A stretch of 64,000 bases of DNA from positions 21,757,537-21,821,536 of the forward strand of contig NC_091144.1 of NCBI RefSeq assembly GCF_041381155.1, read 5' to 3'. This document shows, piece by piece, positions 31,581-62,640 of the stretch. The notes beneath the pieces are model-generated. The model ran no database searches, had not been told where the DNA came from, and was given only the letters and a program-made list of their open reading frames with translations. The position numbers and the translations under genes are program-made. The DNA is from Argopecten irradians (lineage: Eukaryota; Mollusca; Bivalvia; Pectinida; Pectinidae). Each line of letters begins with the position of its first letter. Position 1 is the first letter of the stretch.

Positions 31581-34349
31581 CCAAAAATGACATCAAAAAC
31601 TTGCTATTTTGTTTTGTAAAAATCCATTACAGTATTAACTTCTGGGTTGCCAGTCGACCATCCGTGTCAGACAGTTGCAACCTACTAATAGTAGGTCGGC
31701 GGTTTTTCCATATGTACTTCGACCTTTCTCACTCTCCTTAACCTTACTTATCCTTACACAAAATTAATGGTTTTCTCTCTTAGCCTGTCAATTTCAATGG
31801 TATTTTTGCTGATTATTTGTTGTCGTTACTGTATTCTTGTCAACCTTATAAAATAATTTGTTAAAGGGATAATTCAAGGAGGCTAATTCTGTTACATAAC
31901 CACGAAGCAAAATACGACACAAATATATTGTTCTATTTACTTTTTGAAACATATAATAAGAAATATTGACAAATTCCACGACATTATAAAGTATTTTGAT
32001 CGATACCGTTGAAATTCAAAATCGCTGATCAACGATAAAGCAGGTATACAAAATGTTTGCTGTACCCGTACCCGATCCAAAGTTACGTACGTTAATCAAA
32101 TGCAATACATAACCACTGAGGAGTTGGTTAAGTTATATTTTGACAATACATGCACCTATTGTAATTACGTAAACACACTACTGCAAGAGCGATTTGAATA
32201 GTTCTAGGCAAAAACAAAATCTTTACCACACTGGCAAGGGTCAGCTGGGGTTCGGCATACAAGACGTCCGACCATATTGTGTAATGGCGGACAGCAAGCG
32301 AGTTTGACATACCTTTCACTACAGTGGGATTTTCTGGCATATAACTTTATAAAACCAACTAATCTAATTTCCATAAGAGATGGTTTGTTTCCGATATATA
32401 TGCAAATTTTAATGTACTCTGAATTGTCCCTTTAACTCCAGTGTTAATATGACCGTGATGTCGATTGTAAAGACAGTTTGACGTAATAGTTTGAAAAAGC
32501 TGGCAGAATTACTTTCGTGTATGTAGTCATCTGGTCCAAATAACACACCAAAGCTAAATGTATATGTAAAATGGGACGAAATGACGTTTTCACTTGATGT
32601 AATGTACATGTGGTATGAAGGTCATCCGAACATGACCCCTTATGGGATGTTGTCAGATCCTCTATTGAACAGAGTGGTTATAAGGATCGTTATTTCATCA
32701 GATTGGTATGAAACTGATTCATTTGTGTAGAAATATAAGTTCTGAGTTAGGTGGTGAAACTATGTTATCCCGAAACTGACGAACATACTGAGTTATCAAA
32801 TATGATTTTGTTCATCGACTGACGTACTACTTTAAAATCCTGGATGTCCACACGGATCTCAGAATTTTTAGATGAATTGTCCATATTCGGTCTTGGCATA
32901 TGACATTTATTTTCCTTGTGGGTAGGTATCTCTCACTCATTCGGCAGTTGGGTACCGGAATCGGCCCAGATTTGCCAAATGGAAAAGAATGACGTTACGC
33001 TCGATAACGCACGACGTCACAATCAATACCTACCTGCAATGGCAGATAACTTTGTAATGTGTAAACAGGACTACCATGTTTAGTTGTTTTAGGAGTCTAG
33101 ATCAAAAATCGGTACTGTGTTTTAAATGGCGTATGATACAAGAAGGATGGAAAGCCCGACGAGGCGAGCAATCTACCCCTACCTAGTTTACCTGCTAAAA
33201 GTCATATTTCTAGCAGATCTTCACAGTTATTACTGTTAGAAATATCGATAATTTTCCATTCAAGTTATTCTACAAAAAATGTCGTCACTAAGACGACAAC
33301 ACACCAGTTTCAACAAATGTTTTCAATCGGGTTTTGGAAATCGATTCTGGCACATCTTCATATCGCTGTCACAGGGGTAAAACTGCATGAGTTCCAGAAA
33401 TAGCAAAGCGACAGATTATTAAAAAGGTTTTCAGTTTCTAATATTTGCGGTTACTGTTAGTGATTATATAGACAAAATTGTAGAATTAGTCAAAGCAGAT
33501 TAATTTATTTGCGATCGATATATAGAGGTTACACAACGAGCAGTTGTTGGATAAGGAATTTATTCCAGACGAGTGAGTTATATTTAAAAAGTTACAAAAG
33601 ACACAGCAGTACTTACCTTAGAAACGAAGGGAAGCAACTCTTATAGATCAGAATGCCAGATACGGTGAACCCGGACTTATCGACCGACTTTAATATCAGA
33701 CTTTGTATACGTCAGCACACCGAGTGTAATTCAGATCATTTGTTACACACAAATTTTATTATAAAAATATTTAAAAAAATCGTTGACAAAAGGAACTGTT
33801 ATTTTTGATATTGTATGATTGTATCAGGAGGCCAGGAAACAAAGGTATCTACCGAACTATTTATTTATACTTTCATAACCGTCATTGTATTACACGAATA
33901 ATTAACAACTAACGATTTCTAAAATCAAGCTTTTCAGACATAAGTCAGAAAAAAACCCACTTATTTAGTCTGACAAATTCTGTTTTTATTTATTTTATCA
34001 TGTATGACATCCTCGATGCGACACCAGATGAGATTCGTACCTTTATCATTTGATTTGCATCACAAGAATTGAATAACTTTATACTGTGGTTGACTGTGTG
34101 ATATTGACGTAGGGTGTCAATGTCTCAGCAGACTTGTGATTGGTCAGGTTTTTTCTTCTGGTCTGCTTTCAGTTTTGCTATGACATATTCCAGAGGTGGA
34201 TACATGTATATCGATGTGATAGTAACCCCTTGAGTATCGAGGGTGCATGTACTGTAACCATGTCTAACGAACAGATACCATTTGAGTACCACCAATTAGT
34301 TAATTCAAAACACAAAAATACACACACAAAAGGGTTTTTGTAAGAATGT
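31581..34349. other. Non-coding stretch within duplication unit 1
   Basis: Short ORFs only, for example 32128-32340 (minus), preserved in unit 2 at 51047-51295 simply because the DNA is duplicated. That 70-codon ORF contains no motif I know and sits in generally conserved DNA, so I do not call it a gene. Small local hairpins occur (CTACTAATAGTAG at about 31682). Confidence 0.45.
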
Positions 34350-34355
34350 TTTATT
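34350..34355 (-). terminator. AATAAA poly(A) signal, CDC25 copy A
   Basis: AATAATAAAAC on the minus strand, 416 bases after the stop; the same arrangement as copies B and D. Confidence 0.7.
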
Positions 34356-34412
34356 ATTATTTTATATAAATAACTGAATTGCATTAGTATTCATGTACAT
34401 GTCAAAGATAAA

Positions 34413-34605
34413 AGCACTTCCATTGTAAATAGCACTTAATGTGAATAAACTAAAACTTGTCCATAAAACATACGTCAATCCATAATAAATATATTAATTT
34501 CATTGGATAATAAAGCACATATTTTTCTGGATACTAAATTCCAAATACAATAGGTCTCCGATGAGTTGTAAAAATAATTCATGCTATCAATGTCATTTAG
34601 CACTT
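34413..34605 (-). promoter_or_regulatory. AAGTGCT elements in 3'UTR of CDC25 copy A
   Basis: AAGTGCT (mRNA sense) at 34599-34605, 34431-34437 and 34413-34419. The middle one reads AAGTGCTATTT, an 11-mer also found in copies B and E (E reads AAGTGCTATTT at 62501). Confidence 0.5.
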
Positions 34606-34770
34606 TTTATGCGTTTCTAGCATCTCTTCAGCACAAATAATCGCTGATCCTTATTTTACGAGCTTTCTTATCCCGAATACACCTCTTTCAGCTAATAACT
34701 ATGAAGAGCCTAAAGTTGTTTTATATCACAGAAGTTGGATTAAAGTAAGACTTTTCTGATTGTTGAAACT

Positions 34771-37612
34771 TCAAACATGGCGCCGACAGTTGGTTTTCTT
34801 CTTGTCTCCAGCAGACCAAGACTTGGATTTCGACCGGAAGTGACGTAGATCTTTACCGTGACCAGGATGAAGCATGGGCTTGTATTCCATAGGATAACAG
34901 AGGGTCTACAAAGATAAATATAGTGATGTTTATAGACAAAAGTAAATTGATTATCTTACACAGGAATAGTTAACCTTATTGTAATGAATTGTTTCTTCAA
35001 TTTATTCAGTTATAGACAATCTTTATTTTGCTATTTCGTATCCGTTCATTTCAAATATCATATTTTCAATACATCATATAATTTCCACGATTATTTACTG
35101 TTTTGTTTTACTGTTTACACTCACCTTGTCAGTCTGATAGAAAGCCTTAAATCCGCCATCAAGGAGGTACATCTCGGGGTAGGTCAAGGACGGGTAGTTA
35201 GCCTCGTTCTGAGCACGGTCCTGGGTCCTCAAGAATCGCATCCTGTGAAAAATATAGAATAAATTCAGTTAATGATAGATGATATATATAGTTTGATATA
35301 TTGCGTTCATAGGCTTATCCATCTGTTCAAGTTTTCCATTTTAGCACGGCTGTTCAAAAAATTGAAAACGAGGCGCCGTAAAACATGGCGGAAGTACAAC
35401 AATCTTTGGAAGCAAAATTTCAGAATGAGGGAAAATAGCGAAACGACAATACTAAAATTATATTTACACGTAAATATCACGTTAATGTAAGAAAGCTACT
35501 TGTTTTCACTTATAAAATTTACTTAATTTAATTCGATGTTTTTTATCTTGATATAATCAGTCGAAATTCTTGTGTTTGACAACTTACATTTTAGGACCTC
35601 GTTCTGATGAAAATTCACAGTGGAAGATGAGAACAGTTCTCTTTCCGGTGACGTCACAACTCTGTCTGTTGTGGAGTAGCTGCTGAACCTGGTCACGTGT
35701 GTACATGTTCTCCGCATTCTGTGAAGAAAAAAAAAGATATTTTATAGGGGAAGCTAAAAAGGATCGCCCGATAAAAAATGTTTTTGAACTCGTATAACAC
35801 TCTTGGTCGATATATTTAATCTTGGTCGTTTTTTATTTATTTGATTTTACGTGTTATCTAATTAACAATATTGCATCAATTTGGAAACTTTTATGTTACT
35901 ATATGGTAACCAATACAGATCTACATACCTGGATATGACCTCCTTCGTACTCATACGGGTATCGACAATCAATGATTCTGTAATCATTGATGACGTCATC
36001 GTAACTTCCGGTCAAGATATCTGCCATCTGTGAAAATAAAAAAAATCTACATGTAAACGAATGAATCAAACGAATCGTTTTGTTAACAACATTTAAAACA
36101 GAAAAATAAACTTATAATGATACAAATCTATACAGTGAAATAAACAGTTTGATTAATTTCTATAGTTGTAAAGTAGATTTGCAGTGTACAATGTTCTCAT
36201 TTACATTGTGAATTTAGTAGGTTTTAATCATTTAATGTCTTCAAATACAAAATTGTAAAAACTGAGTTTAAACCGCTTACCGTATCAGCAGAAATAGATT
36301 TGAGGTCCTGGTGTTTGCCCCTGATGGTCGGCAGACAAAACGTGTCTTTCCCGTCCCCAATCAAATCCTCCTCCTCTACCAAACGGTTTACAGCATTCTT
36401 TACGTCAGGTGATAGTGGACTTTCCTGTAAAATACAAATATTATTAAATAAAACAAACATTACTATTTATTTATGATAAATAATACACTAGCTTTTGCAT
36501 TTAGAAGTCTTAGTGTTACAGATTATTTGCATCATTTACTTTTTTTGACGAAAAAGAGAGTGGTAAAACAGATCAAATACTTTCATTTGTAGAATTGATA
36601 AAGGAAGCATTTGACTTTGTACCTACCACAAACGACGATGATCCCCGGGACACGGGCTCGTCTCTCCTCTGTAACTTGGACGGAGTCGACAAACAATCCT
36701 CGTCGTCATCACGTCGCCGTTTTCCTGAGAAGAGAGATCGTCTGAAGCAACTTCTGTCGTTTTCATCAGCTGTCTGAAAGTCATAAACACAATTGAGTTA
36801 TTCATAGGTGTAAAACATTTATCTAAAAGATTCTAATACATTTAATAGCTAATCCCTAATAAAGTCTTATGCACTTTTATTGTATAAGAACTTAGTTGTT
36901 CAAATCCAATCAAATTTAACCCTTGTTTTTTTGGTATTCTGTCTATGATCCACTGATTCTATAAACGTGAATAAAGTATAAGATATATAAATGTATTACC
37001 TATGGTATGATTTATTGTGGATACTGTTAACCACTTCTTTCTTGATCTACATTATGATACTTATACATGTACAATACGATGAACAAAACGATGATACTTA
37101 TACATGTACAAAATGTTACGTTTTAATGTGTACTTAAGTATAATTACCTGTGATGTCGACGGGGAAGCAAACACGTTACTGAAATTAATTCTAGTAGAAA
37201 CTTTGTTGTGAACTGGACTCTCAAACTGAAACATAAACACAAAATGATTAGATAAAAAAAACACAATATCACGACTAAAAGATGTAATCGATAATATATA
37301 TAAATATTTAGTTCATAAAACCATCTTAATAATGCCATTGTATTATACTACATATATTCTATACTTATATCCGATAAAGATATGATTTTGAATAAGACAT
37401 GTAGCTTGTATATATGTAATTTAGTAAATAAGATCTTTATTGTCCTAAAACTATGGTTTACGTTAAACACTCACCCCGTCATCCATCCCTAGTCCAGAAT
37501 CCTCATCATCAAACAGTTGACAGATGTTCTTCTTCACTTCCGAGGTCATCAGAGATTTGACCTCGTCAAAGTCAAGGCTGCGGCGTGGGGTGAAGGTCAA
37601 AGGTGATTCCAT
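34771..37612 (-). CDS. cdc25: CDC25-type M-phase inducer phosphatase, copy A, 329 aa, intact
   Basis: Dual-specificity phosphatase that activates CDK1 by removing Thr14/Tyr15 phosphates. Coding exons, in order: 37612-37475, 37225-37148, 36773-36627, 36424-36281, 36027-35929, 35718-35588, 35242-35125, 34905-34771 (990 nt, all GT-AG, reading frame open). The catalytic loop [10 protein letters not shown] is at residues 235-244, with nucleophile C236 and R242. [15 protein letters not shown], the rhodanese-fold signature, comes about 50 residues earlier. The N-terminal part is short and carries CDK-type sites (FTPRRSL, LSTPSK) and a basic KRRR-QRR cluster that could be a nuclear localisation signal. 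At 329 residues it is much shorter than the roughly 470-570 of vertebrate CDC25, mainly in the regulatory half. Exon 2 lacks two codons (ED) present in D and B. Confidence 0.92.
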
Positions 37613-37881
37613 GACCTGAAAGTAAAAAAGAGAAGTGTTAACTTAATATGTACATAAACATGGTACATCAAAACATTGTCTAGTCTATCAGCGTCTAGGA
37701 AAATTCGGTTTACTTGATCTTGACCTAATTACATATTAATGAATATGTCACAAATGATTAAAATCCTTTAAGTGGTAATTAAAACACTTAATATGAAATT
37801 AAGCACATACATGTGTAGTGCATTTTACATTCATGATTGCCCTTATATGGATATTGAATATGACTTAGAATATATACTTAC

Positions 37882-38001
37882 GATATAAAATAGGTCACGT
37901 GAAGTGTAGATTTGTGGTTACTGTGGATTACTCTTTAAGACCTGTGGATGCTATGGAAGACAAAGTTGATATGGACAACAGAGACAGGTCGTATATTTAT
38001 A
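37882..38001 (-). promoter_or_regulatory. Promoter and non-coding exon 1, CDC25 copy A
   Basis: TATAAATA at 38001-37994 (minus). The untranslated first exon ends at 37882 before GTAAGTATAT and would splice to the AG at 37617-37616, three bases before the ATG. An E-box, CACGTG, lies near the exon end. B, D and E share this layout. Confidence 0.65.
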
Positions 38002-38848
38002 AGGTAAAGAGAAATCGACATCTACTTCCGTTGATATCCTCAATGTGTCTATGCCCATTTCCCTCACACCCAAGCCGTCCCGGGGCCCTGGGCAGAGGTA
38101 CATGTACTCGATCACCCGGGGTTTTATGTAAACAACGATTGGTGTTTTTACAACACCTCGCTTCATAGTTAATTAATTATGAAAACAAGCAATTACAGTA
38201 ATGACACGTTATGTACAGTAAGAGATGGTTTCTCTGTTGTCAAAAAGTATTATCTATCCATTTAATAATTATCATTAACTTATTCATACACTTACATACT
38301 ATTACGGTTTTAGCGATTTTTAAGATTAAGAGATCTTAGGAAACAACCAAAAACATATAAGACATGTGTTTTGTGTATTTTGCATATACTAATGTACATT
38401 TACGTGTAACACGGATTATTGATTATTATAATAATTTATTGAACATTTATCCTATATAGTCAACAAAAACAATCTAAAATGCCATCAGCAATTTGAATTA
38501 AATATTTCATTGATAAATGCAATCAAACACAGGACATAATTATTGTTTTCCGTCATCACCCCCTTGTTTGTCTATATACATGTAATCAACCAATGAATTA
38601 ATAGTGTTTTATTTGTCGACCAGGTACCGGTATAATGATTTTAATTACACCGGATATCCAAATCCATCAAATTGATTATTAAAACAATTACGTACAGACG
38701 TGTAGTAAAAACACCAAACAGTGTGTACATAAAACCTCGGGTGATCGAGTACCTCTCCCCGGGCCCCCGGGACGGCTTGGGTGTGAGTGAGATGAGCACA
38801 GACACATTGAGGATATTAACGGAAGTAGATGTCGATTTCTCCTTACCT

Positions 38849-38958
38849 TATAAATATACGACTTGTCTCTGTAGTCCATATCAACTTTGTCTTAAATAGT
38901 AATCCACAGTAACCACAAATCTACACTTCATTTTAAATCACGTGACCTGTTTCAGATC
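38849..38958 (+). promoter_or_regulatory. Promoter and non-coding exon 1, CDC25 copy B
   Basis: TATAAATA at 38849-38856, then an untranslated exon containing CACGTGACCTGT and ending at 38958 before GTAAGT. The acceptor is at 39471-39472. Mirror image of the copy A promoter. Confidence 0.65.
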
Positions 38959-39475
38959 GTAAGTAATCAATATAGTATACAAATATATAAATATAGTTTT
39001 TAAGCGATGAGGAGAAGACGATCTCTAATATAGTAATCTTGTTTTTTTTACTATAACTTGTAATATTAATTTATTCACATATATTGTCCATAATTTTAGT
39101 ACATTCTTGTCTCGAAAGCCATTTTTACTATTGAAGAATATTTCAAATTGTATATGTTGTGTAAAATGTGTTTGACGTTAATTAAATATATTATTATTAT
39201 TATATATTCAATGTTATATTTGATTTCCAGTTAAACAAACAAAAACTTACAGCTAGTCTTAAAGCAAAGGCCACATACTTATCTAATTAATTATGGTGAC
39301 TGATGATAGTACATATGATGTATAATTCATTTAAAATCAAATTCACACGTGCAATGTATTGAAAGATAAATTGAAATTTTGTTTGAGTGAATATCTTTTA
39401 TATCTTTTGCACTATTTTTACAATAGACCAGACGGAATTTTATCAGTAAATAATTTTATTTATTACTTTCAGGTC

Positions 39476-42299
39476 ATGGAATCACCTTTGACCTTCACCC
39501 CACGCCGTAGCCTTGACTTTGATGAGGATGAGGTCAAAACCCTGATGACCCCTGAAGTGAAGAAGAATATCAGTCAACTGTTTGATGATGAGGATTCTGG
39601 ACTAGGGATGGATGACGGGGTGAGTGTTTAATATGCAAAAATATAGGAGGGGAAAAAAGGAAAACCCCAAAAGAAAAACAACATATCTTTTATTAAAACA
39701 ATAAATTATACATACGATTTTTTTTCTCAAAAGAATGAAATAATACCACATTATTGATTGTCATTGTTATTGTTACATACATGTATAGTGTCTTGATCTA
39801 ATTTATATAATGAGCCTGTGTTTATGTTTCAGTTTGAGAGTCCAGTACACTACAAGGTTTCTACAAGACTGGATTTCAGTAACGTGTTTGCTTCCCCGTC
39901 AGAGGTAGGTAACTCGGAATATACGTAATAGTTTTTATACATATACACGATAAATATATAAGTACAAACGAAACAAAGGAAAAACAACTACATATAGGCA
40001 TGTCAATAACAGCTGTATACATTATAGATACGGACGTTACATGGACAGAAAATGAACTATTATATTTATACAAGATTCCAAATGTTTTACGTCAAATGGT
40101 ATCTTAATTAATAGATGTTTCTATGTTTGTTTTTACTTTCAGACAGCTGAAGAAAACGACAGAAGTTGCTTCAGACGATCTCTCTTCTCAGGAAAACGGC
40201 GACGTGATGACGATGAGGATTGTTTGTCGACTCCATCCAAGTTACAGAGGAGAGACGAGCCCGTGTCCCGGGGATCATCGTCATTTGTGGTAGGTACAAA
40301 GTTAAATAATCCTTATTAGTTCTACAAAAACATGTTTCATGGATATTTTTCTGTCCTCTTCTGCTTTGAAAGAGAGTCATAGAAAAATAACACCGATTCA
40401 ATTAATGTGCAGCAGAATGATTTGATACGATACTTTCTACTAAATTACATGTATTAATTACCAAAATTTATTACCAAACCGACATTGTAATGATAACCTC
40501 TATCAATAGCGATGCTAATTACCAATTTATATTTTACAGGAAAGTCCAGTATCACGTGACGTGAAGGATGCTGTAAACCGTTTGGTAGAGGAGGAGGATT
40601 TGATTGGGGACGGTACACACACGTTTTGTCTGCCGACCATCAGGGGCAAACACCAGGACCTCAAATCTATTTCTGCTGATACGGTAAGTGGCATATCTAT
40701 CATAATCTATTTAGAAATAACAAAGCGATAAATGCTCAGTAAGTTTAAAGAGATTTATTACACGAATATGATTGCACCAAAATACACCGTGCTATAAACA
40801 TACTTTATCAACGAAATCAACTAGAATATCGGCGAGACAAAAATTTTCCGAGATTTTTTCACAACACAGTACAGTTGTCATAAACTAGTATCTGCCACAA
40901 ATCTACAATCTGTCAGAACCAAATCATACAGTCCATACTTTCATCAAGGTACCATTCAATTTTGCTTATTTGTCTTAATTATTCATGTTATTTTCATATC
41001 AACAAGTGGCAGATATCCTGACCGGAAGTTACGATGACGTCATTAGTGATTACAGAATCATCGATTGTCGATACCCGTATGAGTACGATGGAGGTCCTAT
41101 CCAGGTATGTAGCTTTATAACGGTTTAAGTTGAAATAATGTTCACCCGATCCTTTTGTATTTTGTTTTTAAATAAAACATGTTTACACTGAAATCAAACG
41201 GTCACCATGGTAACATAGGATAGTGCAATTTCGAAATCAAGATTAAAAAATAAATCACATATAATAAAATGGATCCACAAGAAAAATTTTTTGCTCGGCA
41301 AAATTTATCCACGAAAACATTAATAACTTCGCAATACTAATTTTGATTTAAGAAGAAAAAAAAACTATTTTCTTCCTTTCCAAAGAATGCAGAGAACATG
41401 TACACGTACACACGTGACCAGGTTCAGCAGCTACTCCACGACAGACAGAGTTGTGACGTCACCGGAAAGAGAACTGTCCTCATCTTCCACTGCGAGTTTT
41501 CATCAGAACGAGGTCCTAAAATGTAAGTTGTCAAAAAAAACAAAAAAAAACAAAAAAAATGTTCGACTGATTGTACTTAGATTAAACACTTCGAATTGTG
41601 GAAAGCATAAAAGATTAAACTATTTTAACTATACACAATTGTAAATATGGATAAGCTTACACGCATACTGGTAATCACTGTCATTAAATGAATTCATTAT
41701 TTTTTATAGGATGCGATTCTTGAGGACCCAGGACCGTGCTCAGAACGAGGTTAACTACCCGGCCTTGACCTACCCCGAGATGTACCTCCTTGATGGCGGA
41801 TTTAAGGCTTTCTATCAGACTGACAAGGTGAGTTTAAACATTAAAACAAAAAAGTAAATAATCATGGAAATTGTAATTGAATATGATAAAATTAACAGAC
41901 ACGTTAATGGGAAAAGAGAGATGGTCTTAAAATTAATAAATACAAACAAAACCTCATAGCAATAAGATAAACGGTCCCTCAATCAGGTAATCAATTTACT
42001 TTTGTTTATAAACATCACTATATTTATCTTTGTAGTCCCTCTGTTATCCTATGGAGTACAAGCCCATGCTTCATCCTGGTCACGGTAAAGATCTACGTCA
42101 CTTCCGGTCGAAATCCAAGTCTTGGTCTGCTGGAGACAAGAAGAAAAGCAACTGTCGGCGCCTAGTTTGTAATTCGCCAATTAGAAACAAGCCCATGCTT
42201 CATCCTGGTCACGGTAAAGATCTACGTCACTTCCGGTCGAAATCCAAGTCTTGGTCTGCTGGAGACAAGAAGAAAAGCAACTGTCGGCGCCTAGTTTGA
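39476..42299 (+). pseudogene. cdc25: CDC25 copy B, probably defective
   Basis: Coding exons 39476-39619, 39833-39904, 40143-40289, 40540-40683, 41006-41104, 41386-41522, 41710-41827, 42036-42299. The catalytic loop [10 protein letters not shown] is intact. Three oddities. (1) At exon 6 the ancestral CACAG/ATGGCA reads CACAA/GTGGCA-like, so the AG has moved one base; using it gives an early TGA. (2) The conserved GGHI after CRYPYEY is GGPI. (3) The last exon contains three tandem copies of a roughly 126-bp block; the frame reads through two, duplicating about 42 C-terminal residues. Exon 7 also has a 6-nt in-frame insertion (YTYT). Expression could survive through a cryptic acceptor, so 'pseudogene' is likely but not certain. 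Confidence 0.75.
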
Positions 42300-42440
42300 A
42301 GTTTCGCCAATAAGAAACAATCCCATGCTTCATCCTTGTCACGGTAAAGATCTACGTCACTTCCGGTCGAAATCCAAGTCTTGGTCAGCTGGAGACAAGA
42401 AGAAAAGCAACTGTCGGCGCCTAGTTTGAAGTTTCGCCAA
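42063..42440 (+). repeat. Tandem triplication inside the last exon of CDC25 copy B
   Basis: Three nearly identical blocks of about 126 bp, each beginning CCCATGCTTCATCC and each containing CTACGTCACTTCCGGTCGAA. Copies A, D and E have one block. The period is a multiple of three, so the duplication of the first block keeps the frame; the stop comes at the end of the second. Confidence 0.92.
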
Positions 42441-42576
42441 TTAGAAAAGGCTAACTTTACACTGACTCCCAATTTTATACGATATATACATGTAACAACT
42501 TTGGGTCCAGAAAGCTATTGACCAAAGTATTTGATGGTTCGTGAAAAACATATATTGACGATTATTTATGATGAAG

Positions 42577-42761
42577 AAGTGCTAGAAACACATCAAAAGT
42601 GCTCAATGACATTGATAGCATGAATGATGTTACTCATTGGAGATCTGTTCTGTTTAGGATCCAGAATAATGTATTTTATTACCAAATGAGAATAGTTTCA
42701 CTTGTGTTGTATGAACAAGTTTTAGTTTAGTCACATAAAGTGCTATTTACAATGAAGTGCT
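42577..42761 (+). promoter_or_regulatory. AAGTGCT elements in 3'UTR of CDC25 copy B
   Basis: AAGTGCT at 42577-42583, 42597-42603, 42738-42744 (context AAGTGCTATTT) and 42755-42761: four copies in under 200 nt. Confidence 0.5.
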
Positions 42762-42801
42762 CTTATCTTTTACATGTATATGTATATCTATGCTATAAAA
42801 T

Positions 42802-42807
42802 AATAAA
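42802..42807 (+). terminator. AATAAA poly(A) signal, CDC25 copy B
   Basis: AATAATAAAAC, mirror image of the copy A signal; it also marks about where the palindrome ends. Confidence 0.65.
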
Positions 42808-42830
42808 ACATTAGGATAAAAAAGTATTTT

Positions 42831-49174: not shown

Positions 49175-49256
49175 CTCGACTCGCGCGCGCTGACCACTGA
49201 CTGCCCAAGGCTGGACTCAGCCCCATGTCAATGTCCGTTTCCGTACCGTATATAAG
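49175..49256 (+). promoter_or_regulatory. Promoter of MLKHVV copy 4
   Basis: TATATAAG at 49249-49256, 159 bases before the ATG, with CTCGACTCGCGCGCGCTGAC about 75 bases upstream. Confidence 0.78.
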
Positions 49257-49407
49257 AACGACAGTCTTCACATTGAAACATCATTCATTGGATTAACATT
49301 TAAAACTATCATTATAAGACGTTGTGAACAGCCTGTGAACTCTAGGGTAATATAGAAGTTTTGAGCGTTTCTGTGACTTTTAGTGGATAAAACAAAACCT
49401 TATCAAT

Positions 49408-50199: not shown

Positions 50200-50331
50200 C
50201 TGAATCTACAACAAAGTGTGCATCCCCTGTAATATACATCAGCACTTAAAATATGGAAATATTGGAGAACATTTCACATTTAAGTATATCGTGACGTCAG
50301 TATCTGTTGAGTTGGTGAGACTTATTGATAC

Positions 50332-50391
50332 AGTGCTAATTGACAAGTCTGGTATTTAATTAACATGCTAATTAACTTCGACTGTAGTGCT
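50332..50391 (+). promoter_or_regulatory. AGTGCT elements in 3'UTR of MLKHVV copy 4
   Basis: AGTGCTAAT at 50332 and again at 50386. Its first copy-3 counterpart (31256) is missing because that part of the 3'UTR is deleted here. Confidence 0.4.
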
Positions 50392-50529
50392 AATGGAAAT
50401 GGAATGTCAGAATGTGCTTTATTTACAATGTACTAAGAAGTGAAATGACATTAGTACTGAGTTCACCAAACACTGCAATTGAGAAATCGTGTTTTGTGAA
50501 GTTTGTGCCAATTATTTTATCTTTGTGAG

Positions 50530-50535
50530 AATAAA
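50530..50535 (+). terminator. AATAAA poly(A) signal, MLKHVV copy 4
   Basis: GAGAATAAACC, 331 bases after the stop, identical in context to copy 3. Confidence 0.7.
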
Positions 50536-53302
50536 CCAAAAATGACATCAAAAACTTGCTATTTTGTTTTGTAAAAATCCATTACAGTATTAACTTCTGG
50601 GTTGCCAGTCCAACATCCGTGTCAGACAGTTGCAACCTACTAATAGTAGGTCGGCGGTTTTTCCATATGTACTTCGACCTTTCTCACTCTCCTTAACCTT
50701 ACTTATCCTTACACAAAATTAATGGTTTTCTCTCTTAGCCTGTCAATTTCAATGTTATTTTTGCTGATTATTTGTCGTCGTTACTGTATTCTTGTCAACC
50801 TTATAAAATAATTTGTTAAAGGGAAAATTCAAGGAGGCTAATTCTGTTACATAACCACGAAGCAAAACACGACACAAATGTATTGTTCTATATTCTTTAT
50901 GAAACATATAATAAGAAATATTGACAAATTCCACGACATTATAAAGTATTTTGATCGATACCGTTGAAATTCAAAATCGTTGATCAACGATAAAGCAGGT
51001 ATACAACATGTGTGTTGTACCCGTACCCGATCCAAAGTTACGTACGTTAATCAAATGCAATACATAACCACTGAGGAGTTGGTGAAGTTATATTTTGACA
51101 ATACATGCACCTATTGTAATAACGTAAACACACTACTGCAAGAGCGATTTGAATAGTTCTAGGCAAAAACAAAATCTTTACCACACTGGCAAGGGTCAGC
51201 TGGGGTTCGGCATAAAAGACGTCCGACCATATTATGTAATGGCGGACAGCAAGCGAGTTTGACATACCTTTCACTACAGTGGGATTTTCTGGCATATAAC
51301 TTTATAAAACCAACTAGTCTAATTTCCATAAGAGATGATTTGTTTCCGATATATAGTCCCTTTAACTCCAGTGTTAATATGACCGTGATGTCGATTGTAA
51401 AGACAGGCTTTAGACAATGAGGTAGTGTGAATTCAATTTGATTAAAACCCATATCCTTATTATCACTTCGTTTGATAAGAGGATCTGACAACATCCCATT
51501 AGAGGTCATGTCCAGGTGGCTTTTGGAAATGGCCAGTCGCTACCATCAGAATCTTGAATGTGAATTTCAGGGGACGAAATAGTTTGAAAAAGCTGGCAGA
51601 ATAATTTTCGTGTATGTAGTCATCTGGCCCAAATAACACACCAAAGCTAAATGTATATGTAAAATTGGACGAAATGACGTTTTCACTTGATGTAATGTAC
51701 ATGTGGTATGAAGGTCATCCGATGATGACCCCTTATGGGATGTACTGACGCACATACTGAGTTATCAAATATGATTTTGTTCATCGACTGACGTACATAA
51801 ATGTACTACTTTAAAATCCTGGATGTCCACACGGATCTCAGAATTTTTAGATGAATTGTCCATATTCGGTCTTGGCATATGACATTTATTTTCCTTGTGG
51901 GTAGGTATCTCTCACTCATTCAGCAGTTGGGTACCGGAATCGACCCAGATTTGCCAAATGGAAAAGAATGACGTTACGCTCGATAACGCACGACGTCACA
52001 ATCAATACCTATCTGCAATGGCAGATAACTCGGTAATGTGTAAACAGAACTACCATGTTTAGTTGTTTTAGGAGTCTAGATCAAAAATCGGTACTGTGTT
52101 TTAAATGGCGTATGATACAAGAAGGATGGAAAGCCCGACGAGACGAGCAATCTACCCCTACCTAGTTTACCTGCTAAAAGTCATATTTCTAGCAGATCTT
52201 CACAGTTATTACTGTTAGAAATATCGATAATTTTCCATTCAAGTTATTCTACAAAAAATGTCGTCACTAAGACGACAACACACCAGTTTCAACAAATGTT
52301 TTCAATCGGATTTTGGAAATCGATTCTGGCACATCTTCATATCGCTGTCACAGGGGTAAAACTGCATGAGTTCCAGAAATAGCAAAGCGACAGATTATTA
52401 AAAAGGTTTTCAGTTTCTAATATTTGCGGTTACTGTTAGTGATTATATAGACAAAATTGTAGAATTAGTCAAAGCAGATTTAATTGATTTGCGATCGATA
52501 TATAGAGGTTACACAACGAGCAGTTGTTGGATAAGGAATTTATTCCAGACGAGTGAGTTATATTTAAAAAGTTACAAAAGACACAGCAGTACTTACCTTA
52601 GAAACGAAGGGAAGCAACTCTTATAGATCAGAATGCCAGATACGGTGAACTCGGACTTATCGACCGACTTTAATATCAGACTATATAAGATCATTTGTTA
52701 CACACAAATTTTATTATAAAAATATTTCAAAAATCGTTGACAAAAGGGACTGTTATTTTTGATATTGTATGATTGTATCAGGAGGCCAGGAAACAAAGGT
52801 ATCTACAGAACTATTTATTTATACTTTCATAGCCGTCCTTGTATTACACGAATAATTAACAAATAACGATTGCTAAAATCAAGCTTTTCAGACATAAGTC
52901 AGAAAAAACCCACTTATTTAGTCTGACAAATTCTGTTTTTATTTATTTTATCATGTATGACATCCTCGATGCGACACCAGATGAGATTCGTACCTTTATC
53001 ATTTGATTTGCATCACAAGAATTGAATAACTTTATACTGTGGTTGACTGTGTGGTATTGACGTAGGGTGTCAATGTCTCAGCAGACTTGTGATTGGTCAG
53101 GTTTTTTCTTCTGGTCTGCTTTCAGTTTTGCTATGACACATTCCAGAGGTGGATACATGTATATCGATGTGATAGTAACCCCTTGAGTATCGAGGGTGCA
53201 TGTACTGTAACCATGTCTAACGAACAGATACCATTTGAGTACCACCAATTAGTTAATTCAAAACACAAAAATACACACAAAAAAGGGTTTTTGTAAGAAT
53301 GT
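50536..53302. other. Non-coding stretch within duplication unit 2
   Basis: Counterpart of 31581-34349. No gene seen. Confidence 0.45.
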
Positions 53303-53308
53303 TTTATT
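53303..53308 (-). terminator. AATAAA poly(A) signal, CDC25 copy D
   Basis: AATAATAAAAC on the minus strand, 416 bases after the stop. Confidence 0.7.
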
Positions 53309-53723
53309 ATTATTTCTTATAAATAACTGAATTGCATTAGTATTCATGTACGTGTCAAAGATAAAAGCACTTCCATTGTAAATAGCACTTAATGTAAATA
53401 AACTAAAACTTGTCCATAAAACATACGTCAATCCATAATAGATATATTAATTTCATTGGATAATAAAGCACATATTTTTCTGGATCCTAAATCCTAAATA
53501 CAATAGGTCTGCGATGAGTTGTAAAAATAATTCATGCTATCAATGTCATTTAGCACTTTTTATGCGTTTCTAGCATCTCTTCAGCACAAATAATCGCTGA
53601 TCCTTATTTTACGAGCTTTCTTATCCCGAATACACCTCTTTCAGCTAATAACTATGAAGAGCCTAAAGTTGATTTATATCACAGAAGTTGGATTAAAGTA
53701 AGACTTTTCTGATTGTTGAAACT

Positions 53724-56484
53724 TCAAACATGGCGCCGACAGTTGGTTTTCTTCTTGTCTCCAGCAGACCAAGACTTGGATTTCGACCGGAAGTGACGTA
53801 GATCTTTACCGTGACCAGGATGAAGCATGGGCTTGTATTCCATAGGATAACAGAGGGTCTACAAAGATAAATATAGTGATGTTTATAGACAAAAGTAAAT
53901 TGATTGTCTTACACAGGAATAGTTAACCTTATTGTAATGAATTGTTTCTTCAATTTATTCAGTTATAGACAATCTTTATTTTGCTATTTCGTATCCGTTC
54001 ATTTCAAATATCATATTTTCAATACATCATATAATTTCCACGATTATTTACTGTTTTGTTTTACTGTTTACACTCACCTTGTCAGTCTGATAGAAAGCCT
54101 TAAATCCGCCATCAAGGAGGTACATCTCGGGGTAGGTCAAGGACGGGTAGTTAGCCTCGTTCTGAGCACGGTCCTGGGTCCTCAAGAATCGCATCCTGTG
54201 AAAAATATAGAATAAATTCAGTTAATGATAGATGATATATATAGCTTGATATATTGCGTTCATAGGCTTATCCATCTGTTCAAGTTTTCCATTTTAGCAC
54301 GGCTGTTCAAAAAATTGAAAACGAGGCGCCGCAAAACATGGCGGAAGTACAACAATCTTTGGAAGCAAAATTTCAGAATGAGGGAAAATAGCGAAACGAC
54401 AATACTAAAATTATATTTACACGTAAATATCACGTTAATGTAAGAAAGCTACTTGTTTTCACTTATAAAATTTACTTAATTTAATTCGATGTTTTTATCT
54501 TGATATAATCAGTCGAAATTCTTGTGTTTGACAACTTACATTTTAGGACCTCGTTCTGATGAAAATTCACAGTGGAAGATGAGAACAGTTCTTTTTCCGG
54601 TGACGTCACAACTCTTTCTGTTGTGGAGTAGCTGCTGAACCTGGTCACGTGTGTACATGTTCTCCGCATTCTGTGAAGAAAAAAAAAGATATTTTATAGG
54701 GGAAGCTAAAAAGGATCGCCCGATAAAAAATGTTTTTGAACTCGTATAACACTCTTGGTCGCAATATTTAATCTTGGTCGTTTTACTTTATTTGATTTTA
54801 CGTGTTATCTAATTAACAATATTGCATCAATTTGGAAACTTTTATGTTACTATATGGTAACCAATACAGATCTACATACCTGGATATGACCTCCTTCGTA
54901 CTCATACGGGTATCGACAATCGATGATTCTGTAATCATTGATGACGTCATCGTAACTTCCGGTCAAGATATCTGCCATCTGTGAAAATAAAAAAATCTAC
55001 ATGTAAACGAATGAATCAAACGAATCGTTTTGTTAAAAACATTTAAAACAGAAAAATAAACTTATAATGATACAAATCTATACAGTGAAATAAACAGTTT
55101 GATTAATTTCTATAGTTGTAAAGTAGATTTGCAGTGTACAATGTTCTCATTTACATTGTGAATTTAGTAGGTTTTAATCATTTAATGTCTTCAAATACAA
55201 AATTGTAAAAACTGAGTTTAAACCGCTTACCGTATCAGCAGAAATAGATTTGAGGTCCTGGTGTTTGCCCCTGATGGTCGGCAGACAAAACGTGTCTTTC
55301 CCGTCCCCAATCAAATCCTCCTCCTCTACCAAACGGTTTACAGCATCCTTCACGTCACGTGATACTGGACTTTCCTGTAAAATGTAAATAGATAAAATAA
55401 ACATTATTATTATTTTACGATACATAATACACTTGCTTTTGCATGAAGAAATCTTAGTGCTGCAGATTATTTGAATCATTAACTTTTTTGACGAAAAAGA
55501 TCTAGTGGTAAAAAAGATCAAAACCTTTTATTTGTAGAATTGATAAAAGAAGCATTTGACTTTGTACCTACCACAAACGACGATGATCCCCGGGACACGG
55601 GCTCGTCTCTCCTCTGTAACTTGGATGGAGTCGACAAACAATCCTTGTCGTCATCACGTCGGCGTTTTCCTGAGAAGAGAGATCGTCTGAAGCAGCTTCT
55701 GTCGTTTTCATCAGCTGTCTGAAAGTCATAAACACAATTGAGTTATGTATAACATTTATCTAAAAGATTCAAATACATTTAATAGCTAATCCCTAATAAA
55801 GTCTTATACACTTTTATTGTATAAGAACTTAGTTGTTCAAATCCAATCAAATTTAACCCTTGTTTTTTGGTATTCTGTCTATGATCCACTGATTCTATCA
55901 ACATGTATAAAGTATAAGATATATAAATGTATTACCTATGGTATGATTTATTATAGATACTGTTTACCACTTATTTCTGGATCTACACGATGATACTTAT
56001 ACATGTACAAAATGTTACGTTTTAGTGTGTACTTAAATATAATTACCTGTGATGTCGACGGGGAAGCAAACACGTTACTGAAATCAAGTCTTGTAGAAAT
56101 TTTGTAGTGGACTGGACTCTCAAACTGAAACAAAAACACAAACTGATTAGATAAACAATATCATGGCCAAGGGAGATAATATCTATAAATGTATAATAAG
56201 TTCATAAAACCAATTTATATACATTCTGTAGTTATATCCGATAAAGATATGTTTTGGAATAATGCATGTAGCTTGTATATATGTTATTGAGAAAATAAGA
56301 CTTTAATATCTTATAACTATGGTTTACGTTAAATACTCACCCCGTCATCCATCCCTAGTCCAGAATCCTCATCATCAAACAGTTGACAGATGTTCTTCTT
56401 CACTTCCGGGGTCATCAGAGATTTGACCTCATCCTCATCAAAGTCAAGGCTGCGGCGTGGGGTGAAGGTCAAAGGTGATTCCAT
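53724..56484 (-). CDS. cdc25: CDC25-type M-phase inducer phosphatase, copy D, 331 aa, intact
   Basis: Coding exons, in order: 56484-56341, 56124-56047, 55718-55572, 55374-55231, 54978-54880, 54670-54540, 54195-54078, 53858-53724 (996 nt; frame open; canonical splice sites). Catalytic loop [10 protein letters not shown] at residues 237-246 (C238, R244); [13 protein letters not shown] in exon 6 supplies the rhodanese-fold core; the C-terminal FRSKSKSW tail matches the basic CDK-docking tail of the family. The N-terminal third carries [15 protein letters not shown] and LSTPSK. Relative to copy A it retains the extra ED pair, and in exon 5 its [10 protein letters not shown] reads like copy B, not A, pointing to gene conversion between arms. 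Two conservative changes (a lysine for glutamate in the DDDED run, RKS for RQS in exon 7) are specific to D. Confidence 0.92.
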
Positions 56485-56763
56485 GACCTGAAAGTTATAA
56501 TAAAACGGTAAACTGAATATGTACATAAACATGTTACATCAAAACATTGTTTAGTCTATCAGCGTCTAAAAAAATTCAATTTACTTGATCATGGCCTAAT
56601 TACATTGTATATAATGCACTAAATTTACGACAATATGCATAAATGAGAAAAAAACCTTTCGGTAGCAATTCAAACACTTAATTTGAAATTAAGTACATAC
56701 ATAGTGCAAAGTGCAATTTTGCATTAATGTATGCCCTTATACGGATATTGAATATATACTTAC

Positions 56764-56893
56764 AATATGAAACAGGTAACGTGATTCGTAATGAAATGTA
56801 AACTTGTGGTAACTGTGGATTACTCTTTAAGACTTGTGGATGCTATAGAAGACAAAGTTGATATGGACTACAGAGACAAGTCGTATATTTATA
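56764..56893 (-). promoter_or_regulatory. Promoter and non-coding exon 1, CDC25 copy D
   Basis: TATAAATA at 56893-56886 (minus); the untranslated exon ends at 56764 before GTAAGTATAT. The E-box of the other copies is mutated here (CACGTG to AACGTG). Confidence 0.6.
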
Positions 56894-57129
56894 AGGTAAG
56901 GAGAAATCGACATCTACTTCCCTTAATATCCTCAATGTGTCTGTGCTCATCTCACTCACACCCAAATTGCAAGCTGTCCCGGGGGCCCGTTGAGAGGTAC
57001 ACGATCACTTGGAGTTTTTATGTAAACACTTGGCGGTGTTTTTACAACACCTCGTTTCATAGTTAATTGATTAATTCCGAAAACAATCAATCACAGTAAT
57101 TATACGTTTTTTTGTATAGTTAGAGTTGA

Positions 57130-57840: not shown

Positions 57841-58480
57841 TAAATAGTTTTATTTTAATTAATGTACACTGTATATACATGTACTTGCATCTGTTTCTCT
57901 ATATAATGTACATCGTAAATGAAAATTATAATGTAGTTGAAAGTTAAAAGAAATAATTCACAAATCAATTATTAATGCTATTGTCGTTGCCGTCACCACC
58001 CTCTTATTCCCCTATAGTATCTACTAATTATCAATTAATTAACCTTTTATTGTTTATACTGTAGAATGGTATCTTCATTTTAAAGAAACGTTGTTGTATT
58101 TATTATGTCGTGTTTTTAATTGAAGATGAAACCTAATTGAATATTTGAACTTGAACTACATGTATATCTAGACACTTAACACGTGCTACTGGTTACTATA
58201 ATTATTTACATTGTATTAAACATTCGGTTAATAACAAAAATAAAAGGATATGCCACCAACAATTTAAAATTAAATATATTATTTATCAATGTAATTAAAA
58301 CACAGGACATGATAATCGAGAACAGTGTCCGTCACCACCCTCTTATTCCCCTATAGTATCTACTAATTATCAATTAATTAATTAATTAATTAATTAATGG
58401 TATTTTGTCGACTAAGTACCGATATAATGGTTTTAATTGCACCGGACATCCAACTTCATCAAAATTATTATTAAAACAAT
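57841..58480. other. Spacer between CDC25 copies D and E
   Basis: 58150-58440 matches the A-B spacer (38370-38640); the remainder is unique. A (TTAA)n microsatellite lies at about 58372-58398. No gene. Confidence 0.5.
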
Positions 58481-59285
58481 ACAATACAATACAATACAAT
58501 ACAATACAATTTTTATTTATTAGAGTGTCACACATTTTTACAACAGGGTAAAAAAAGCAGCCATGATAAATAATTTACCAATTAGAATAAAAATGCCCAG
58601 CCAGATCTGACTTACGAGACACTTAAAAGAATATATATATATTTAAAAAGTATCAAATTATCCAGTTAAAAAATTCGTCACGATCGTAAAATGGTGCCTG
58701 TTCTATCGTATATCGGTAAGGAGATACCTGATCAGTATCATTATATAGGTTGGGATTCTTAAAAGCATGTACTAGTACATATTATTATTAAACAAAATCA
58801 AAACATAATCTTCGTCTGTACATGTTATATAATGTGGCCGCTAACGTGGATTGAAGGTTCGTATTCTGCATAAGAAATTGTAATTTAAGAGAAGAATCAA
58901 GGTTTGTGAAGTTTGGTAGATAAAAAGATGCTTTGTTGTATAGAGAAAGTTTCAAATCTGAGTAAAAGTCACAATCTATCAGAAAATGAGTCTCATCTTC
59001 TATAGAGCCTGAATTGCACAAAGTACATTTTCTCTCCTGTAAAGGTATAACAGGATGAGAATACCGTCCCGTCTCTACTTTAAGTTTCAAGCTCCCACAG
59101 CGAAATTTGGCTAAGGTTTGTCGATGTTTATAGTTCATTATTAACGTCACATATGGTTCCGGAGCAAGATTATTTTTATACGTTCGGTAGGTCCTAAGCT
59201 TATTTCTGTTGTCTTGACCGGAGTCGTTCCACATTTGTCTATACCAGTTAGTTACATCCTCCTGTTTGAATACTAGTTTACAATT
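58481..59285 (-). mobile_element. 5'-truncated LINE insertion, about 805 bp, with (ATTGT)n tail
   Basis: Encodes on the minus strand (59321-58788) a 178-codon ORF2 C-terminus with KCTLCNSG...DETHFLIDC, the same zinc-binding pattern as the fragment at 57.1-57.8 kb. The minus-strand 3' end is a tail of (ATTGT)n, seen as ACAAT repeats at 58481-58512. The pre-insertion sequence survives before copy B: AAAACAATTACGTACAGACG at 38681-38700. Here AAAACAAT and TTACATGTACGTCCAGACG flank the insert, with ACAAT at both junctions as a likely target duplication. Confidence 0.8.
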
Positions 59286-59447
59286 ACATGTACGTCCAGA
59301 CGATTTTAGTAAAAACACCAATCAGTGTGTACATAAAACCTCGGGTGATCGAGTACCTCTCCCCGGGCCCCGGGACAGCTTGGGTGTGAGATGAGCACAG
59401 ACAGATTGAGGATATTAACGGAAGTAGATGTCGATTTCTCCTTACCT

Positions 59448-59578
59448 TATAAATATACGACTTGTCTCTGTAGTCCAAAATCAACTTTGTCTTCCATAGC
59501 ATCCACAAGTCTTAAAGAGTAATCCACAGTAACCGCAAATCTACACTTCATTTTAAATCACGTGACCTGTTTATTAAC
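59448..59578 (+). promoter_or_regulatory. Promoter and non-coding exon 1, CDC25 copy E
   Basis: TATAAATA at 59448-59455; untranslated exon with CACGTGACCTGT, ending at 59578 before GTAAGT; acceptor AG at 59861-59862. The LINE insert ends 160 bases upstream. Confidence 0.6.
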
Positions 59579-59865: not shown

Positions 59866-62378
59866 ATGGAATCACCTTTGACCTTCACCCCACGCCGCAG
59901 CCTTGACTTTGATGAGGTCAAATCTCTGATGACCCGGAAGTGAAGAACATCAGTCAACTGTTTGGTGATGAGGATTCTGGTCTAGGGATGGATAATGATG
60001 AGGTGAGTGATTAATGTGTAGGAGGAAGGGAAAAATGAAAACCCAAAAAGAAAAACAACATATTTTTACTTGAACAATAAATTACGTATACGATGATTTT
60101 TTTAATTTCTTCTGAAAGTATGAAATAATCCCTCATTATCGATTGTTTATGTTATCGTTAAATTGTCCCTGTATCTAATTAGTCTGTTTATGTTTCAGTG
60201 TGAGAGTCCAGTGCACTACAAAGTTTCTACAAGACTGGATTTCAGTAACGTGTTTGCGACACCGTCACAGGTAGGTAACCGGAATATACGTAATACACCT
60301 CATATATCCATACACGTAACAGATAGAAGAATATACATGTATATATGGTGATGACGATGATGATGACGACATTGCTGATGATATGATCACAGCATGAGCA
60401 GTATTTTAAATTATAATAACATCAACAATAAATATACATGCAGTTTTACAATATCCCTATTCGTATTTTGGTTCGTCAATTGGCATTTAAATGAATATTT
60501 TGAATATCATAAATGTGTTTATGACTTCCAGACAGCTGATGAAAACGACAGAAGCTGCTTCAGACGATCTCTCTTCTCAGGAAAACGGCGACGTGATGAC
60601 GACGAGGATTGTTTGTCGACTCCGTCCAAGTTACAGAGGAGAAACGAGCCCGTGTCCCGGGGATCATCGTCGTTTGGGGTAGGTACAAGGTCAAATCCTC
60701 CATCTTATAAAGCAATTATATTATAACCATTTATTTTATAAACCTCAACTGTTCATAAGATTTAACGCTATCCTCTCTCATCAAAATAGGAAAAAGATAA
60801 CGACTCAAATGAAATGTAGCACTGTGATATACATGTACTATAAATTATCATGGTAAATGTAAATAACGATTAACGTCAATGAAAGGCGACGTGGATTTTC
60901 ATTTGTATTTATATATTACAGGAGAAAATTGTGTCACGTGACGTGAAGGATGTTGTGAACCGTTTGGCGGAGGAGGAGGATTTGATTGGGGACGGGACAG
61001 ACAAGTTTTGTCTGCCGACCATCAGGGGCAAACACCAGGACCTCAAATCTATTTCTGCTGATACGGTAAGTGGTTTAAATATATAAAATATTTTAGAAAT
61101 AACAAGACGATAAAGCTCATGAAGTCTGGATACATCAATATAATTATTTTATTATTAAATGAATAAAATATACCAATATATACATGTAAACCGAACCAAC
61201 TTGAATATCAAAAATGAATGAACTTTTTTATATTGGCATATGTTTTCATTTTATAGATGTCAGATATCTTAATCGGAAGTTACGATGACGTCATCAATGA
61301 TTACAGAATCATCGATTGTCGATACCCATATGAGTACGAGGGAGGTCATATCAAGGTATGTAGCTCTGTAACTGTTACCATAGTAACAAAGAACAATGTA
61401 ATTTTTGAAATATTTTCTGCAAAATAATTGTTCAAATCACCAGTATGAAAACAGGTGTTCTGTTCGATAAAAGCTAGAAATGTATCACTAATATTGTTCA
61501 AATTTGCAAATAAGAAATCTTAACTTCTGTTTTTAAGACAACTATTGTCTTTCTTTCCACAGAGTGCAGAAAACATGTACACACGTGACCAGGTTCAACA
61601 GCTACTCCACGACAGACAGAGCTCTGACGTCACCGGGAAGAGAACTGTCCTCATCTTCCATTGCGAGTTTTCATCAGAACGAGGTCCTAAACTGTAAGTC
61701 TTAAAATATGTAATGAGTTCGATTAATTGCAGCTAGATTAGGAACTTTGAATGGAATAAATCATGAAAGTGTAAACTATTAACTTTCCAACAGAATCATA
61801 ATCTAGAACATGTGCAAATGGGCAAGCTTACCGACGACTTATGACAAACTACAAAATACATGTATTAACTCTGTCATTAATTGATTTTTTTTTGTATTTC
61901 ATAGGATGCGATTCTTGAGGACCCAGGACCGTGCTCAGAACGAGGCTAACTACCCGGCCTTGACCTACCCCGAGATGTACCTCCTTGATGGCGGATTTAA
62001 GGCTTTCTATCAGACTGACAAGGTGAGTCAATGCAGTAGAATAAACAGTAATAATAAATACGGATATATCGAGATATTTTAAAACTGAATTGATATTTTT
62101 TTGGGACAAGAGATATTAAATATACCCTGAACTGAATACTTAAAGAAACCTCTTCATAAAAAAGGAAAGTGTTCCTGTACATGCAAATCGATATATGAAT
62201 GTCAATCTAAACATTAAAATATTTTTATTTTTATTTTTGTAGACCCTCTGTTTATCCTATGGAGTACAAGCCCATGCTTCATCCTGGTCACGGTAAAGAT
62301 CTACGTCACTTCCGGTCGAAATCTAAGTCCTGGTCTGCTGGAGACAAGAAGAGAACTGCCAGTCTACGCCGTGCTTAA
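59866..62378 (+). pseudogene. cdc25: CDC25 copy E, two frameshifts
   Basis: Exons 59866-60002, 60199-60270, 60532-60678, 60922-61065, 61257-61355, 61563-61693, 61905-62022, 62243-62378. Splice sites are all intact and the catalytic loop [10 protein letters not shown] reads open. In exon 2 a net loss of four bases relative to B gives TGA shortly after MTRK. In the last exon an extra T (CTGTTTATCC versus CTGTTATCC) shifts the frame and replaces the basic C-terminal tail. Had the frame been kept it would end KKRTASLRRA-stop, a tail different from A, B and D but shared in type with fragment C. Recent pseudogene, or two consensus errors in the assembly. Confidence 0.8.
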
Positions 62379-62481
62379 AGCTTCACCAATCTCGGAAGTT
62401 TTACTCTACTATTCTACACTGTCGTAGAACAACCATAGGTTCTGGTTATTGGACGAGCGAGTTGGACGGTTATTTTGTGCT

Positions 62482-62579
62482 AAGTGCTTGAACACATTCA
62501 AAGTGCTATTTGTCATTGATGTGATTATTGGTTTTTAGTGTCATTATAAACTATATGGGCAATTTTCATTTTAAGTGCT
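62482..62579 (+). promoter_or_regulatory. AAGTGCT elements in 3'UTR of CDC25 copy E
   Basis: AAGTGCT at 62482-62488, 62501-62507 and 62573-62579. The surrounding 3'UTR is otherwise hard to align with that of A and B. Confidence 0.5.
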
Positions 62580-62634
62580 ATTGGAAGGAAGTGCCTTTTT
62601 ATATATATACATGGTTATTCGTTTGTTTACGTTA

Positions 62635-62640
62635 AATAAA
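62635..62640 (+). terminator. AATAAA poly(A) signal, CDC25 copy E
   Basis: GTTAAATAAATAT, 257 bases after the ancestral stop codon. Confidence 0.65.

Follow-up and report, generated by a model that had tools for sequence, protein, structure and literature searches.

We analysed a 64,000-nucleotide stretch of the Argopecten irradians genome (RefSeq assembly GCF_041381155.1, contig NC_091144.1, positions 21,757,537 to 21,821,536 of the forward strand), hereafter called the window and numbered from its first letter. The window carries an array of CDC25 phosphatase genes. All copies of the array lie between 34.7 and 62.4 kb, in the order A(-), B(+), C(-), D(-), and E(+). The coding exons and a block at the 5' end of each full-length copy were found to be alike across the array, whereas the introns between them had diverged and grouped the copies in a way that the exons did not. 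We regard concerted evolution by ectopic gene conversion, confined to the exons and the 5' block, as moderately probable, somewhat above an even chance. That this concerted evolution was exon-sized is put forward tentatively. On this view, exons of 72-147 bp and the 5' block stayed alike in copies of either orientation, and nearly all introns between the two older lineages diverged almost beyond alignment. If it is true, the effective conversion tracts would be near or below 150 bp.

The conflict between exons and introns was measured in gap-free columns of the four full-length copies by counting the sites that group A with D against B with E (AD|BE). The introns held 268 such sites in 1507 columns, against 10 in 980 columns of coding exon (Fisher p=5e-49) and 2 in 239 columns of the 5' block. 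From the 5' intron through introns 1-7, the counts were 43, 31, 45, 18, 48, 44, 24, and 15. The changes shared by A and D were then set against those private to A or D. Introns 4-7 were not used here, as they lie inside a tract in which A and D are 95-100% identical, and intron 2, where A and D differ at only 2/215 columns, was omitted from the first tests and added later. Exons 1-3 showed 2 shared changes versus 9 private ones (p=0.003). The synonymous divergence (Ks) of the coding sequences was 0.113 for A-B, 0.104 for B-D, 0.174 for A-E, 0.165 for D-E, 0.181 for B-E, and 0.044 for A-D.

The same contrast might arise with no conversion between the lineages, through purifying selection that extended to synonymous sites as well as to splice signals and the promoter or 5' exon, and that was relaxed after the last duplication. 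We consider this rather unlikely. The conserved segments are the functional ones, namely the exons and the 5' block with its TATA-like motif, and the ratio of nonsynonymous divergence (Ka) to Ks is 0.25-0.32 among the four full-length copies, both as selection would have it. However, a several-fold conservation of synonymous positions would be needed, since AD|BE patterns occupy 5/271 third positions that are synonymous in all four copies against the 268/1507 intron columns, a rate from which about 37 would be expected at 210 synonymous sites. A neighbouring gene, here called gene X, is not conserved in this way either, with a Ks of 0.37-1.3 in every pairing except X3-X4.

Gene X served as the local control. 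It is apparently intronless, starts with MLKHVV..., encodes 258-379 amino acids (aa), had no Pfam match above the cut-off, and is present in four copies. Copy X3 (30415-31191, +) belongs to the same duplicated unit as CDC25 copy A, and the other copies, X1, X2, and X4, lie at 19161-20300 (-), 24891-25793 (+), and 49408-50199 (+). Their Ka/Ks ranged from 0.28 to 0.73. X3 and X4 are close (Ks 0.105, Ka 0.077, flanks at 0.02-0.05). Between X2 and X3 or X4, Ks was 0.37-0.39, and the flanks aligned well above shuffles, with p distances of 0.15-0.17 upstream and 0.27-0.28 downstream. Between X1 and the rest, Ks was 1.1-1.3, with upstream flanks above the shuffle range and downstream flanks within it. 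Because the between-lineage CDC25 introns mostly align worse than the flanks of X2 against X3 and X4, a Ks of at least 0.4 would be expected between the CDC25 lineages; the pairs other than A-D lie at 0.10-0.18.

The 5' block measures 254-282 bp in each full copy. It spans 37882-38151 (-) in A, 38705-38958 (+) in B, 56764-57045 (-) in D, and 59309-59578 (+) in E, and contains TATAAATA at 38001, 38849, 56893, and 59448, respectively. The TATA-like motif sits in the middle of the block, which ends at the splice donor GTAAGTA and is followed by a diverged intron closing with CAG right before the ATG. From this layout, the block is probably a promoter plus a non-coding first exon.

The block provides a further point on which selection alone fares poorly, as it was no slower than the introns in A and D, yet almost unchanged on their shared branch. 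Changes private to A or D were found at 29/239 block columns versus 39/372 columns of the two nearest introns (the 5' intron and intron 1; p=0.60), and the block rate exceeds the 51/776 obtained once introns 2 and 3 are added (p=0.009). Shared against private changes numbered 2 versus 29 in the block. The 5' intron, intron 1, and intron 3 together gave 92 versus 49 (p=1e-9), and adding intron 2 raised this to 137 versus 51 (p=1e-12). The block was therefore not frozen on the A and D branches, and a steady constraint does not account for how little it changed on the branch that they share. Changes private to B or E occurred at 7/239 block columns versus 54/372 in the two nearest introns (p=8e-7), a scarcity that would be expected if B and E exchanged sequence later.

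A second comparison was obtained from fragment C, which retains exons 6-8, and from copy E. Sites grouping C with E against A, B, and D (CE|ABD) were found at 1/248 columns of exons 6-7 versus 53/359 columns of introns 6-7, whereas changes private to C or E were equally frequent in both (24/248 and 30/359; p=0.57). The contrast of shared with private changes between these exons and introns was significant (p=7e-8). Even with all nonsynonymous changes rejected, about 8 CE|ABD changes would be expected in exons 6-7, and 1 was seen (P=0.004). Since C and E changed at the intron rate in exons 6-7 after their separation, exchange seems to have ended once they had decayed. For the same reason, the idea that the pseudogenes were still swapping exons after decay was rejected.

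Several results weigh against conversion. The C/E test above omitted exon 8 and intron 5, and exon 8, entered later, keeps the CE|ABD pattern at 8/115 columns, of which 7 lie at positions 110-131 of its 135. With exon 8 included, the C/E contrast becomes 9 versus 28 against 53 versus 30 (p=7e-5), and the 9 shared changes are not clearly below the expectation from synonymous sites only. This cluster at the end of the exon implies that homogenisation, if real, did not reach the last 26 bases. In exons 1-3, changes private to A or D were fewer than in the introns (9/353 versus 49/561; p=1e-4), as coding constraint predicts. Patterns that contradict the tree, AB|DE or AE|BD, were found at only 2/980 exon and 1/239 block columns. 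Furthermore, the alignments of A and D to B and E are near random for several introns, so that the intron pattern counts carry alignment noise. At the exon boundaries, where conversion might have spilled into the introns, identity drops to near chance within about 20-30 nt of the splice sites, which also suits selection, and splice signals and indels could cause such fading as well. Gene X is the sole control gene and is fast-evolving, which makes it a thin yardstick. Finally, the evidence for GC-raising biased gene conversion is mixed. At third positions, A, B, and D have a higher GC (0.53) than gene X (0.41-0.43), but at four-fold sites the two are about equal (0.43-0.45 in CDC25, 0.40-0.44 in gene X).

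The first-pass annotation had described A and B as a true palindrome that includes promoters and 3'UTRs. Homologous arms were indeed found at about 34317-38151 and 38705-42840, on either side of a 553-bp spacer (38152-38704), and both the 5' block and the 3' flank fall within them, but they are not arms of high identity. The coding exons of A and B differ at 4.8% of positions (47/984), whereas their introns differ at 41% (400/975) when aligned globally and trimmed by 4 bases around gaps. In best local alignments, the introns differ by 18-31%, and introns and flanks together by 18-32%; introns 2, 4, and 5 score no higher than the best of 30 shuffles. The A/B arms thus stem from an inverted duplication that is old, and they do not form a palindrome of near-identical halves. 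Overall A/B identity was rejected as proof of arm-to-arm conversion, as the arms are near random in places outside the exons and the 5' block.

The array is also part of a direct segmental duplication. The part of unit 1 with X3 and A spans 29418-38227 (+) and is homologous to the part of unit 2 with X4 and D, at 48412-57128 (+). The direct repeat holding A and D duplicates an older unit made of gene X, a CDC25 on the minus strand, and a CDC25 on the plus strand. The A/B and D/E spacers share a stretch of 70% identity (38388-38688 against 58155-58480), a similarity that makes the divergent pair probably older than the unit duplication and makes B and E positional partners. The D/E spacer is about 2.3 kb long, and a stretch of it at 58788-59321 has a weak zf-RVT match below the Pfam cut-off (E=0.0068), which is perhaps a retroelement insertion.

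Fragment C with its 3' flank (44578-47362, -) is inverted relative to E with its 3' flank (61380-63981), and the two are about 84% identical, with gaps. This homology may continue past the window end at 64000, which falls inside the E 3' flank, and unit 2 may likewise contain a fragment similar to C. C and E differ by 11-15% in introns 5-7, values that fit the age of the unit duplication. Copy B is a mosaic. The 250 nt before its ATG and its intron 1 score best to E (113 and 183); the scores to A and D are 44-66, with 63-66 for intron 1, and the best shuffles reach 47-53. By contrast, its intron 7 scores best to A and D (229-233 versus 78 to E), as does its 3' flank (317-325 versus 76). The introns of B and E differ by 15-33%, and the 3' flanks of the A-E and D-E pairs have p distances of 0.27-0.30. 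We infer that C would be the displaced 3' end of the partner gene in unit 1, and that B took a 3' end of the A/D type. A single inversion with B that left C as its clean reciprocal product was also considered, but in B as in C introns 5-6 are more like those of E, and one crossover does not explain both.

Within the direct repeat, a tract of about 5 kb on the A side (31337-36315) is 95.3-100% identical to 50292-55265 in 150-column windows. Its right edge is sharp, at 36396-36397 inside coding exon 4, and beside the tract, on both sides and still inside the repeat, identity in such windows is 80-98%. This suggests a recent conversion or crossover. A gene conversion claim had already been made for the array, on the ground that D carries exon-5 residues of B rather than of A. 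We took that exon to be coding exon 4, which becomes the fifth once the probable non-coding first exon is included. The residues SRDVKD are common to B, D, and E, and the exon has 4 A-only, 0 D-only, 2 B-only, and 12 E-only sites, with 1 AD|BE, 0 AB|DE, and 0 AE|BD sites. As E carries the B/D residues, A is the derived copy, with private changes at four sites, and no transfer from B to D is needed; conversion of coding exon 4 of D by B was therefore rejected. Gene conversion in the array accordingly gains support from the other data described here and not from the D/B likeness first cited for it.

The near-identity of A and D also raises the question of assembly, as units 1 and 2 might come from a very polymorphic genome with fewer true copies, as its haplotypes or as contigs joined in error. 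About 5 kb at 95-100% identity is within the allelic range of polymorphic animals, unit 2 reaches the window end, and the same window has a contig gap at 575-584 with an adjoining inverted repeat. On the other side, there is no N between 585 and 64000, the Ks and Ka between X3 and X4 and the divergence of the B and E introns are above ordinary allelic difference, and the A/B inversion sits within one unit. The identity around the tract, with windows down to 80% on both sides and a span of 80-100% inside the repeat, is likewise not a uniform divergence of allelic level. We judge an assembly artefact improbable, though less so for the A/D tract than for the rest of the array.

The history that we favour runs as follows. 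An inverted duplication of one CDC25 gene produced two copies transcribed away from each other, and the larger unit of gene X, CDC25(-), and CDC25(+) was then duplicated in tandem, with further rearrangement of the array. For part of their history, the copies would have exchanged sequence by ectopic gene conversion. Purifying selection may have started the process by keeping the exons alignable, while the introns gathered so many substitutions and indels that conversion ceased to pass through them and exchange stayed efficient only in the 5' block and the exons. The kilobase A/D tract, lying in the younger direct repeat, would have been converted or crossed over recently. Conversion itself, its direction, and its timing are presumed from these patterns.

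A different template for the exchange was also considered, namely that spliced CDC25 cDNA overwrote the exons and the non-coding first exon and left the introns. The homogenised segments do stop at splice junctions, including that of the probable non-coding first exon ending in GTAAGTA. Nevertheless, homogenisation is weakest in the 3' flanks and at the exon 8 end, from which reverse transcription would proceed, and the TATA-like motif lies in the middle of the block, so that part of it may be untranscribed. Moreover, all four full-length copies keep every intron, with no loss in A, B, D, or E. Conversion templated by RNA is, in our view, very improbable.

The content of the array was established by exon-level blastn across the 64-kb window, with the exons of A, B, D, and E as queries and E values up to 1e-3. 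The five neighbouring copies proposed in the first-pass annotation were all recovered, as 37 exon pieces inside 34771-62378: eight in A, ten in B (with its last exon tripled), three in C, eight in D, and eight in E. The search found no CDC25 exon piece elsewhere in the window, and tblastn with D across the window gave a sole extra match at 15.9 kb, at chance level (E=6.6). The head-to-head pairs A(-)/B(+) and D(-)/E(+) and the inverted fragment C(-) agreed with the earlier description, as did the division into two intact and three decaying copies, the intact ones being A and D.

Copy A (34771-37612, -) has eight coding exons, at 37612-37475, 37225-37148, 36773-36627, 36424-36281, 36027-35929, 35718-35588, 35242-35125, and 34905-34771, and encodes 329 aa. 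Copy D (53724-56484, -) likewise has eight coding exons and encodes 331 aa. Spliced A and D have open frames, with GT/AG at every coding intron and coding exons of 72-147 bp. Both matched Pfam Rhodanese with E about 4e-12 and keep the active-site HC(X)5R (HCEFSSER) plus a further 13-residue CDC25 region. The D protein matched human CDC25B (PDB 1cwr) with E=1.5e-57 over query residues 140-328. Among the five copies, A and D are the only ones predicted to encode a full CDC25 phosphatase, and two working CDC25 doses are a likely outcome.

Copy B (39476-42447, +) has lost the acceptor of exon 5 at 41006, where ACAG|ATGG became ACAA|GTGG. The nearest downstream AGs would trim the exon by one or seven bases and break the frame; skipping the exon (99 nt) would keep the frame but remove a 10-residue part. 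B also reads GGPIQ where GGHIQ is expected. Its last exon consists of three tandem copies of a 130-bp unit with 96% matches (42058-42447), and the first stop is gone, so that reading continues into the second unit. Fragment C (46373-47204, -) has only exons 6-8 (47204-47074, 46849-46732, and 46487-46373), and these are broken by further lesions within them. Copy E (59866-62378, +) carries two frameshifts, -1 in exon 1 and +1 in exon 8, and its other exons remain open. In this assembly, B, C, and E are thus pseudogenes.

The remainder of the window showed several other features. The sole N run comprises 10 N at 575-584. The 574-bp piece before it (1-574) matches 7458-8032 in inverted orientation at 92% and is possibly a haplotig or join artefact. 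A 21-bp tandem repeat of 16 copies at 14825-15959 reads as YKPGNWS-like or LVTGPT-like peptide repeats, and next to it lies a reading frame on the minus strand that includes a stretch resembling a signal peptide. At 23180-23777, a 26-bp satellite has 23 copies with 85% matches and weak inverted self-matches. The fold-back element at 27701-28660 has 323-nt arms that are 95% complementary, a 25-nt centre, and outer arms of 103 and 45 nt; the outermost arms begin with CACTGGGGGCC and end with GGCCCCCTGTG. The tRNA and Rfam scans of the window gave no matches, and among the 13 pattern matches of a viral-contig scan there was no relative.

Some known systems resemble the array. In Drosophila, Amy-p and Amy-d are linked paralogues in palindromic orientation, and D. 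kikkawai has two palindromic pairs (PMC3924832). The Amy pair is the nearest match to the CDC25 array, with inverted linked paralogues and concerted evolution limited to the coding region. The scallop array likewise has inverted linked paralogues and exons that are less diverged at synonymous sites than the noncoding DNA between them. It differs from the Amy pair in that its coding sequence is split over eight exons with diverged introns between, an upstream non-coding block is also homogenised, three of five copies are pseudogenes, and it is known from one species. In mammals, BMP8A/B, DDX19A/B, and TUBG1/2 are converted pairs with tracts over exons and introns and mostly raised GC (PMC2720389). 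They too are multi-exon paralogues kept alike by conversion, with one pair inverted, whereas the CDC25 array excludes introns except in A/D and its GC is mixed.

The A/B pair also recalls the gene-bearing inverted arms with arm-to-arm exchange of the primate Y chromosome. The arms of those palindromes are nearly identical throughout, while the A/B arms are old and have diverged outside the exons and the 5' block. Other animal CDC25 sets, such as vertebrate CDC25A/B/C, Drosophila string and twine, and C. elegans cdc-25.1 to.4, belong to the same phosphatase family and are dispersed, in contrast to the 28-kb inverted and tandem cluster found here. A literature search, judged by titles and abstract openings, found no report of a CDC25 array. 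The exon-by-exon fragmentation and the 5' non-coding block set the array apart from the known converted cases.

CDC25 times entry into mitosis, and animals generally keep few, dispersed copies of it. With two intact doses next to three copies in decay, the array shows a copy-number change of a core cell-cycle switch in progress. The conflict between exons and introns poses a testable question, namely what is the minimum homologous island still homogenised by conversion, and it means that exon trees and intron trees from the CDC25 locus can disagree.

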